DNA from: Halanaerobiaceae bacterium
GTDB lineage: Bacteria; Bacillota; Halanaerobiia; Halanaerobiales; Halarsenatibacteraceae
DNA: 44,661 nucleotides
Assembly: GCA_003553225.1 (NCBI GenBank)
Contig: PWDW01000068.1
Span: 1 to 44,661, forward strand
Direction: 5' to 3'
Position 1 is the stretch's first letter, and each line of letters opens with the position of its first letter. Below, piece after piece: positions 36,036 through 38,758 of the stretch. Below the pieces are notes generated by a model that worked only from the letters and a program-made list of their open reading frames with translations, was not told the DNA's origin and searched no databases. Made by a program: the position numbers and the translations under genes.

Positions 36036-36345
36036 ACCGAAGTGGATTGATAATTGATCTGTATCCAGCGGTATTTTTGAACTTCAATAGTTGAGTTAAT
36101 ATATTGGATTGTCCTTAATAATTGTGGGAAGATTTAAGTATATGTTTTGATCGTCAAAGAGCTCCATTTTTGTCCTGAGAGAAAGAAGACAAATAACAAA
36201 ATATCTGTTTTACCTTTCAAAGCAGCTATTTCAATATGATACTATTTTTATTAAAAAATGATGATATTAATTGACATTTTTTAAAAACAGTGTTATAATA
36301 AAAAAGTAAAGTATTGATTATTTTACATTTTTATCAATATTTTCA
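36036..36345. other. Intergenic region yqfO-rnpB, no gene seen
   Basis: A 310-base AT-rich stretch. Only the rnpB promoter near its end is clear; a small TTTGTC/GACAAA hairpin occurs near 36170-36195. No frame with a ribosome-binding site was seen. Confidence 0.65.
36271..36299 (+). promoter_or_regulatory. Consensus promoter of rnpB (TTGACA-N17-TATAAT)
   Basis: A perfect sigma-A promoter: TTGACA (36271-36276), 17 bases, TATAAT (36294-36299). Transcription should start near 36306, about 40 bases before the P1 helix, so 5' processing is expected. Confidence 0.93.
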
Positions 36346-36833
36346 GGATAAGTTAACCGAAGGGCCGCAGTCATTACTGTATATCCTTTCTAATATATCT
36401 TTTATTTTAAAAAAGGATTGATTTAAAAACTATTTTAAAGGATATAACTTATATGACTGAGGAAAGTCCGAGCTCCACAGGGCAGGGTGCCGGGTAATCC
36501 CCGGTAGGGGTGACCCTCAGGAAAGTGCCACAGAAACCAGACCGCTTTTCGGCAGCAAAAAGTCATTCCGGGACCTGCAGTTAACTGCTTTAGGGTCCAG
36601 GCAGATTAAGCTTTTTGGATCCGAGAGGTAAGGGTGAAAAGGTGAGGTAAGAGCTCACCAGAGTTCAGGTAACTGAGCTGCTGGGCAAACCCCGCCTGGA
36701 GCAAGTCCTAATAGGGGAACGTTAAGGCTGCCCGCCATGTTCCCGGGTAAGGACGCTAGAGGTATCAGGCAACTGGTACCCAAGATAGATGGCCGCTTGA
36801 AAACAGAACTCGGCTTACAGGTTAACTTATCCT
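36346..36833 (+). ncRNA. rnpB: RNase P RNA with elongated P3
   Basis: The catalytic RNA that trims tRNA 5' leaders, about 488 bases. The P1 helix is a 15-bp perfect pairing of 36344-36358 with 36820-36834. The conserved P4 5' strand is in GAGGAAAGTCCGAGCTCC and its partner in ACAGAACTCGGCTTA. The conserved GGTAAGAGCTCACC and GGAGCAAG segments are also present, and J18-like elements follow in order. The size exceeds the usual 350-420 because P3 (36368-36459) is a 92-base AT-rich arm. Overall it looks like ancestral type A. Confidence 0.95.
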
Positions 36834-36896: not shown

Positions 36897-36912
36897 GGGG
36901 TGTTTGAACCCC
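36897..36912 (+). other. Small hairpin before the small-gene pair
   Basis: GGGGT (36897-36901) pairs with ACCCC (36908-36912) around a 6-base loop, just upstream of the ribosome-binding site of the first small gene. There is no T tail. It could be a leader element. Confidence 0.35.
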
Positions 36913-36929
36913 TAAATGAGGTGTTTACA

Positions 36930-37142
36930 GTGACCAAAAAGAGTGTTTTAAATGCAGTAGAAAAGCTGAATACAGTGTTAAATAAAGTTGATGACTTCAA
37001 GGAGCTTGATCTGGAAATCAGTGAAAGAGTTAAAGATAATAGAATTATTACCCTGGAGGGCTATCTAAAGTTTCTGGATGAAGTTGGTATTCCCCGCCTG
37101 AAAAAAATAGCCAGCATACTAAAGGAGGATGAACATGTCTGA
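36930..37142 (+). CDS. Unrecognised 70-residue protein (small pair, first gene)
   Basis: Not recognised. A 70-residue product beginning MTKKSVLNAVEKLNTVL, predicted to be mostly helical and mixed-charge, without membrane segment or cysteine. GTG 36930 is chosen because AGGTG (36919-36923) lies 6 bases upstream; an earlier GTG at 36900 sits in a hairpin. It follows rnpB and overlaps the next small gene by 8 bases, a strong sign that both are real and coupled. Helix-rich small pairs next to an XRE regulator recall toxin-antitoxin modules, but no family was recognised. Confidence 0.7.
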   Translation: MTKKSVLNAVEKLNTVLNKVDDFKELDLEISERVKDNRIITLEGYLKFLDEVGIPRLKKIASILKEDEHV

Positions 37143-37338
37143 TCAATTATATTTTAAAATTCAGTATCCACTAAAAAAGGCAATCAGCAGTCTTAAAGAA
37201 TTTGAAGCTGAAGAGATAGATATAGATGAGTTTTCAGCCGCCGAAAAAAGAGAAATTGATGAATTTATAAAACTCTGGGAAAACAATGGTGGTCATGGTC
37301 TGCATAAATTAATAACCAGTCTGCGTAAAACTCTATAA
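37135..37338 (+). CDS. Unrecognised 67-residue protein (small pair, second gene)
   Basis: Not recognised. A 67-residue product, MSDQLYFKIQYPLKKAISSL and onward, with an acidic middle (EFEAEEIDIDEF) and a C-terminal segment NNGGHGLHKLITSLRKTL. ATG 37135 is 6 bases after AAGGAGG, itself inside the preceding gene, so translation is coupled. A terminator follows. Composition matches neighbours, so recent transfer is not indicated. Function cannot be told. Confidence 0.72.
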   Translation: MSDQLYFKIQYPLKKAISSLKEFEAEEIDIDEFSAAEKREIDEFIKLWENNGGHGLHKLITSLRKTL

Positions 37339-37345
37339 ATTGTTT

Positions 37346-37378
37346 GATCATGGAGACTGGCCATGGTCTTTCTTTTTG
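37346..37378 (+). terminator. Terminator after the small-gene pair
   Basis: GATCATGG (37346-37353) pairs with CCATGGTC (37361-37368), one G-U, followed by TTTCTTTTT. A second 10-bp inverted repeat (37373-37382 with 37396-37405) overlaps the T run and could act on both strands. Confidence 0.75.
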
Positions 37379-37472
37379 TATTTTATAATACATATAATAC
37401 AAAAAAATGATACCAATAAACTCTTAAAAATGCTCTTATAGGCCCTTAATATATATAACAGAGGTGAAATAA

Positions 37473-37826
37473 ATGGAGAAAAATATAATCGGAGAACGTG
37501 TGAGAAAGCTGCGATACAGTATGGATTTAACCCAGGAAAAACTGGGGGAGAAGGCTGAGCTGCATTACAGTTATATTGGTCAGGTGGAGAGGGGAGATAA
37601 AACTCCTTCTTTAACAGCCTTAATGAAAATATCCGAGGCTCTCAATATTCCTCTTGAAGATTTAATCAGGGAACCCCGGGAGGATAATCCGGAAGTTAAA
37701 CTTAAATTAAAAAATATTAATAATATGCTTGCTGATCGTTCTCCCCGGGAACTGGAATTAATAAAAAATATTCTTCAGAATATTTTAGAATATATGGACA
37801 GCAAAGATCATCAGCTGCAGTCTTAA
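37473..37826 (+). CDS. XRE-family helix-turn-helix regulator
   Basis: A 117-residue DNA-binding protein. The Cro/CI-type helix-turn-helix spans residues 6-62: IGERVRKLRYSMDLTQEKLG, then YSYIGQVERGDKTPSLTALM and ISEALNIPLEDLI. The remaining 50 residues (RSPRELELIKNILQNILEYM) form a probable dimerisation helix, giving a SinR-like size. AGAGGTGAA precedes ATG 37473. It stands between the small-gene pair and yebC with a terminator before it, so its targets are not obvious; autoregulation or control of the small pair is possible. Confidence 0.9.
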   Translation: MEKNIIGERVRKLRYSMDLTQEKLGEKAELHYSYIGQVERGDKTPSLTALMKISEALNIPLEDLIREPREDNPEVKLKLKNINNMLADRSPRELELIKNILQNILEYMDSKDHQLQS

Positions 37827-37993: not shown

Positions 37994-38758
37994 ATGGCCG
38001 GCCATTCTGAATGGCACAATATTAAACATCAGAAACAAAAACAGGATAAAAAGAGGGCTAAACTTTTTTCTAAATTAAGTAAGCGGATTACGGTTGAAGC
38101 CCGTGAAGGTGGCGGAGATCCGGAAAAAAATCCGGGGCTGAGAAGGGTCATCAGAAAAGCAAAAGATCAGAATATGCCTAAAGATAATATAGAAAGGGCT
38201 ATAAAAAGGGGCACCGGTGAGCTGGAAGGTGTCAATTATGAGCAGTTTTATTATGAAGGATATGGTCCGGGAGGTATTGCCCTTTATATGGATATAACCA
38301 GTGATAATCGGAACCGTACCGCCTCTGAACTGCGCCATATACTTTCCAATAATGGGGGAAACCTCGGCCAATCCGGCTGTGTTGACTATATGTTTGATAA
38401 AAAAGGACGTATTGTTATAGAGCTGCAGGATAATGATATATCAGAAGAGGAACTGATGCTGCAGCTAATTGAACTGGGTGCTGAAGATATAGATGTCCAA
38501 AATGAGATAGCTACTATCTATACTGCTGTTAATGAACTTGATAATATTCGAGATCAGCTGGAGGAGGAAGGAATTGAGGTGGATTCCTCCGATCTGGCCA
38601 TGGTACCTCAGAATGAAGTTGAAATACAGGATAAGAATACCGCTGCTAAAACTTTAAATTTAATGGAAGAGCTGGAAGAACATGATGATATTCAGGAAGT
38701 TTATACCAATTTTAATATACCGGAAGAGATAATTAAGGAGATTAAAGAAGCCAGCTGA
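37994..38758 (+). CDS. YebC/PmpR-family regulatory protein
   Basis: A 254-residue member of the YebC/TACO1 family. Members are described as DNA-binding regulators (including of ruvC region genes) and more recently as translation factors for proline-rich stretches; which applies here is unknown. It starts MAGHSEWHNIKHQKQKQD and carries LFSKLSKRITVEAREGGGDP, NMPKDNIERAIKRGTGE and EGYGPGGIALY. GGGGGTGAG precedes ATG 37994. yebC followed by ruvCAB is a widespread arrangement. Confidence 0.96.
   Translation: MAGHSEWHNIKHQKQKQDKKRAKLFSKLSKRITVEAREGGGDPEKNPGLRRVIRKAKDQNMPKDNIERAIKRGTGELEGVNYEQFYYEGYGPGGIALYMDITSDNRNRTASELRHILSNNGGNLGQSGCVDYMFDKKGRIVIELQDNDISEEELMLQLIELGAEDIDVQNEIATIYTAVNELDNIRDQLEEEGIEVDSSDLAMVPQNEVEIQDKNTAAKTLNLMEELEEHDDIQEVYTNFNIPEEIIKEIKEAS

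Follow-up and report, generated by a model that had tools for sequence, protein, structure and literature searches.

The window, the whole 44,661-nucleotide stretch analysed here (contig PWDW01000068.1 of a Halanaerobiaceae bacterium), carries two small overlapping genes, A and B, between the RNase P RNA gene rnpB and a gene for an XRE regulator. The features of this locus are listed below in order of position.

36271..36299, + strand: promoter-like site before rnpB, sigma-70-like, TTGACA-17-TATAAT (consensus scan, 12/12 matches)
36349..36833, + strand: rnpB, RNase P RNA (Rfam RF00010, 298 bits), neighbour of A and possibly on the same transcript
36918..36923, + strand: ribosome-binding site of A, GAGGTG, six bases 5' of the A start
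36930..37142, + strand: gene A, GTG start, 70 aa, predicted two-helix hairpin, first of the pair coupled in layout
37121..37128, + strand: ribosome-binding site of B, AAAGGAGG, six bases 5' of the B start, within the 3' end of A
37135..37142, + strand: 8-base overlap of the A end and the B start, of the same length in 35/38 genomes
37135..37338, + strand: gene B, ATG start, 67 aa, predicted two-helix hairpin, second of the pair
37346..37368, + strand: terminator-like hairpin with a T-rich tail, 3' of B (consensus scan)
37473..37826, + strand: gene for an XRE regulator, 117 aa (HTH_3, E 5.5e-13), neighbour of the pair and not a member of it

Direct reading of the window bears out the sequence-only reading, which had described frames of 70 and 67 residues with good ribosome-binding sites and an overlap of 8 bases. 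For A, a mechanical list of open reading frames contains an earlier GTG at 36900, and the relatives favour the start at 36930. Most of the 38 pair-carrying genomes have a site resembling GAGGTG or GGGGTG 5' of A; in two, where the pair has been relocated, no such site is evident. The earlier reading had also assigned neither protein to a known family, and this assessment stands. Neither A nor B has a match at the curated cut-off in Pfam or NCBIfam, PADLOC returns no match, and the best PHROGs matches are weak (E 0.016 for A, 0.046 for B) and of unknown-function or unrelated kinds.

Conservation and inheritance of the gene pair

The pair is carried by many salt-loving members of the class Halanaerobiia. 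Profile searches of 59 genomes of this class locate A in 38 and B in the same 38, with one strong match to each gene per genome. The two genes are adjacent in all 38 genomes. They overlap by 8 bases in 35 and by 23 bases in two, and in the remaining one they stand one base apart. This shared distribution, together with dN/dS values of 0.05-0.35, supports the earlier view that both are real genes and that they are coupled in layout, the ribosome-binding site of B in the window lying inside A. The dN/dS range covers 39 of 50 pairwise values from 25 pairs of closer relatives, the other 11 being saturated, and both genes appear on this sequence evidence to be under purifying selection.

Several residues are invariant among the 37 complete pairs, namely N37, R38 and Y45 in A and D3, Y6, Q10, Y11, P12, K14, K15, F44, W48 and L63 in B. 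In the 8-base layout, D3 of B overlaps the stop of A, yet the residue is kept in the three genomes with other layouts; it therefore seems to be conserved for its own sake and not for the overlap. One genome in which B is cut by the contig end (G043) was omitted from the residue counts and from the tree. Near-duplicates were dropped from the alignments, 8 of 33 rows for A1 and 9 of 33 for A2.

A joint A+B tree of 37 genomes requires six changes for seven family labels, the minimum possible, and none of 200 shuffles is as low; in this tree f1 alone needs two changes, support for the deepest split is low (69/26), and G000 and G002 sit on long branches. Since the tree follows the family labels, the pair appears to be inherited vertically and not to be mobile.

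The counts of 38 exclude some weak matches inside longer frames. At E 0.01 the tallies print 39 genomes for A and 40 for B, the extras being an A match in G024 and B matches in G044 and G053, which lack the pair (E 0.002-0.01). Extra weak B matches of the same kind and E range occur in G023, G036 and G029, and these are also uncounted. Beyond the class, the A profile matches seven of 398 phylum genomes, all of them pair-carrying class members. The B profile matches 11 of the same 398, comprising seven pair-carrying class members and four genomes of family f33. In f33 the weak matches (E 1.4e-4 to 4.2e-4) fall inside frames of 611-639 aa, one of which (L110) resembles a histidine kinase that contains a HAMP-like segment. 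The f33 matches were set aside because B gives no HAMP family among the Pfam matches listed (25 of 40 families in one listing).

A single-sequence scan of genome contigs with B returned no relative. A scan with an alignment as query returned 23 loci, all labelled Halanaerobiales, Halanaerobiaceae, Halanaerobium or Halothermothrix; it depends on a single 8-residue pattern and does not cover every carrier, as H. orenii (G011), which has the pair, is missing. No match to B occurs among 50,697 records of phages and 72,556 of plasmids, and viral contigs contain no relative of A or B. The titles and abstract openings of the literature surveyed hold no description of the pair.

Within the class, no pair was detected in families f4, f6, f8 and f11, in Halanaerobium praevalens (G014), or in G051, a 57%-complete assembly without either gene that is included among the absences. 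We read the absence from the four families as loss or late gain. A search for remnants near rnpB and yebC in G014, G010 (f4), three f6, five f8 and five f11 genomes gave best E values of 0.16 (A) and 0.37 (B). Since G010 gives no rnpB match and just part of yebC, the absence of the pair there may be an assembly gap. In the f6 genomes G012, G015 and G021, yebC lies within about 100 bases 3' of rnpB, and in H. praevalens no trace of A or B is present from rnpB to the XRE gene. The state of these loci indicates that nothing need take the place of the pair where it is absent or lost. H. praevalens keeps rnpB, the XRE gene and yebC, although other genomes of the genus Halanaerobium examined carry the pair. 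The type strain of this species is described as non-motile (PMC3156398).

The same evidence bears on the suggestion of the sequence-only reading that the locus resembles a toxin-antitoxin module. Two small overlapping genes with an XRE gene nearby in the window do invite the idea of an addiction module, such as a toxin-antitoxin system, which might or might not include the XRE gene. Neither A nor B, however, matches a toxin or antitoxin family in Pfam, NCBIfam, PHROGs or PADLOC. In the genomes and records searched, the pair shows no sign of the patchy or horizontal spread, the several copies or the placement on mobile elements that mark such modules. A single-copy, mostly syntenic and vertically inherited pair, with no match to B in the phages and plasmids searched and none to either gene in viral contigs, speaks against a mobile or toxin-antitoxin module, and the XRE gene is separable from the pair. 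We consider such a module highly improbable.

The placement of an XRE regulator 3' of the terminator-like site is correct as first described. The protein has a helix-turn-helix of the Cro/C1 type and belongs to the XRE/HTH_3 group (49.2 bits against a cut-off of 23). Its inclusion in a three-gene module did not survive comparison across relatives. An XRE gene was found 3' of B in nine of the 38 genomes, a count in which three loci (G001, G009 and G043) end too early to tell. In 18 genomes only 108-212 bases separate B from yebC, and eight further pair-carrying genomes show no XRE match after B. In G014 the XRE gene lies between rnpB and yebC without A or B. Hence, of the proposed unit, the A-B part is conserved as such and the regulator is a neighbour, incidental to the pair.

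The rnpB neighbourhood and transcription

The pair mostly sits between rnpB and yebC. rnpB lies directly 5' of A in 26 of the 38 genomes (24 recognised by a 3'-end motif, G002 by Rfam and G028 by a variant motif). yebC occurs within 2 kb 3' of B in 33; of the other five loci, three end early and two are those of relocated pairs. In the window, yebC is presumably the frame at 37994-38758, followed by what we take to be ruvC, ruvA and ruvB. The relocated pairs, in G003 and G005, have moved from the rnpB-yebC interval and are still together. A gene of roughly 650 aa follows the relocated pair (L180 in G003, and L082); we take it to be peptidase-like, and the gene on the other side in G003 to encode a TypA-like GTPase. 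One gene, presumably of the alpha/beta-hydrolase kind, stands between rnpB and A in G039, and in G042 rnpB is on a different contig.

This arrangement raises the possibility that A and B are made from the rnpB transcript and act on RNase P or RNA processing. In six genomes (G001, G002, G004, G006, G007 and G009) A starts only some 20-35 bases beyond the 3' end of rnpB, and with so short a gap A-B is probably on the rnpB transcript there; in those without an Rfam scan, this 3' end was located by comparison with the window. In the window, a consensus scan detects no promoter-like site between rnpB and A; over the 2 kb scanned it reports five promoter-like sites, where shuffled sequences average 7.3, and three terminator-like sites, where they average 1.4. 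In five f10 genomes, however, a TATAAT-like site read by eye lies before A, so co-transcription with rnpB is not general.

Further observations weigh against a functional link to RNase P. The pair has left rnpB in G003 and G005, a different gene precedes A in the eight genomes described below, and H. praevalens and the f6 genomes keep rnpB without the pair. The argument for the link is one of position, which is weak evidence, and we regard the link as distinctly unlikely. A more specific version, in which A and B are a lineage-specific hetero-oligomer translated from the 3' portion of the rnpB transcript, so that synthesis of RNase P RNA is tied to production of a small complex acting in RNA processing, seems very unlikely. 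A functional link, if there is one, would mean that an RNase P RNA transcript also has a protein product. The H. orenii genome paper contains no occurrence of "RNase P" or "diguanylate".

In eight genomes of families f5 and f7, a GAF-GGDEF gene lies directly 5' of A (domains Pfam-checked in three). In three of the eight that were scanned with enough room (L064, L069 and L075), rnpB stands just before this gene. The gene, for example at L064:6221-7696, encodes a GGEEF motif in all eight. Its position could suggest a cyclic-di-GMP signalling unit that includes A-B. The N-terminal part of the GAF-GGDEF protein, however, finds no counterpart at E 1e-10 among the remaining 30 pair-carrying genomes, and its 12 weaker matches fall in f8 and f11 genomes without the pair. 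A signalling unit of this kind is, in our judgement, extremely improbable.

The surroundings of the pair show other features worth recording. rnpB in the window is 485 bases long, against 333-369 in the class relatives scanned, with an exception of 415 in G013. This unusual length comes from an AT-rich hairpin inserted close to the 5' end (window 36370-36460), apparently in P3. The insert folds better than shuffled sequences (z -3.0; 1 of 200 as good), and its best other match within the same genome spans 35 bases at 83%. In several relatives a 63-aa zinc-ribbon-like protein (CxxCG...CKEC) is encoded between a Nif3-like gene and rnpB, at the positions listed below.

L061:6975-7166: 63-aa zinc-ribbon-like protein
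L064:5448-5639: 63-aa zinc-ribbon-like protein
L069:5464-5655: 63-aa zinc-ribbon-like protein
L075:5502-5693: 63-aa zinc-ribbon-like protein

No such frame is seen at that place in the open reading frame list of the window. The Nif3-like protein of L064, L069 and L083 is 264 aa long, against about 367; it matches the protein of the window in two pieces and thus seems to be without a middle insert.

Predicted structure and relatedness of A and B

AlphaFold2 models built from 24-row alignments predict a two-helix hairpin for each protein. For A, the helices span residues 3-21 and 32-68 (mean pLDDT 77, pTM 0.53); for B, they span 2-25 and 35-66 (mean pLDDT 82, pTM 0.49). Mean pLDDT across the five models ranges from 66 to 77 for A and from 71 to 82 for B, and confidence in these single-chain models is middling. 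Foldseek returned no PDB chain for either model, and a PDB sequence search gave only weak matches (lowest E 0.014 with B and 1.5 with A). Pfam searches with family members yielded scattered, weak and mutually inconsistent matches, the best being YtxC (E 6.2e-4) in 3 of 25 A rows and TENA_THI-4 (E 6.1e-4) in 2 of 24 B rows. Median isoelectric points are 4.6 for A, which is mostly acidic, and 5.3 for B, which is variable, and no simple charge complementarity emerges.

The two families resemble each other. Their profiles align collinearly over 58 columns with a score of 25.6 (P 1.7e-4, hhalign probability 50%), and with the profiles swapped the score is 23.5 (probability 32%). The score of 25.6 was not reached in any of 200 column permutations, whose highest value was 18.1. 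With reversed profiles the scores fall to 14.1 and 13.0, and 58 comparisons against windows from four other protein families yield at most 17.2. Such an end-to-end alignment suggests that A and B arose by an old tandem duplication, with the reservation that helical hairpins can look alike by convergence.

A candidate helical complex and related systems

Taken together, we consider it reasonably probable that A and B are a lineage-restricted core pair of the Halanaerobiia whose products are two subunits of one small helical complex. The overlap is kept across genomes, the ribosome-binding site of B in the window lies inside A, and translation of the two genes is probably coupled. Coupling of B to A would yield both proteins in a fixed ratio. 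The two subunits, which would descend from one duplicated hairpin protein, would use their conserved faces to pack into a helical bundle. The contact faces may lie on helix 2 of A around N37-Y45 and on helix 1 of B around D3-K15, and the invariant residues lend themselves to testing. The complex itself might be a non-essential accessory of housekeeping or regulation, a role that fits the wide retention of the pair and its occasional loss.

The main rival holds that A and B are expressed together and act separately without contact, the overlap serving to save space or to fix a ratio. Overlapping genes are common in bacteria, according to one study (PMC6728339), and coupled expression is no proof that A and B touch. 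On the other side, the two genes are never apart in 38 genomes, even after relocation in G003 and G005, and their profiles are similar. Separate action is therefore a reading to which we give some weight while thinking it unlikely.

Among known systems, overlapping gene pairs are often coupled in translation, as 13 of 14 tested pairs were in that study (PMC6728339). The layout of A-B makes it a candidate member of this class.

Type II toxin-antitoxin modules share with A-B the small size, the overlap and, in the window, a nearby XRE regulator. The pair differs in its vertical inheritance, single copy, mostly constant synteny and lack of linkage to the XRE gene, and B differs in having no match in the phage and plasmid records searched. 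The locus illustrates how comparison among relatives can distinguish a conserved, coupled core pair from one that only resembles a toxin-antitoxin module.

WXG100/Esx proteins are small helical-hairpin heterodimers with a WxG motif in the turn between the two helices. A-B resembles them in consisting of two adjacent small genes for predicted hairpins that are possibly related by duplication. B differs in that its invariant W48 lies inside helix 35-66 and not in a WxG turn. A WxG string appears in only a few B rows, at the mid-helix place of W48, and no WXG100 family is among the Pfam matches listed (25 of 40 families in one listing); we do not assign the pair to this group.

Finally, A and B share with lineage-restricted conserved hypothetical proteins a distribution confined to one class in the searches made. 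They differ from these in being two overlapping genes that behave as one unit. A and B represent a pair of small protein families, unmatched in the libraries searched, that have been kept together across at least seven families of a single class.
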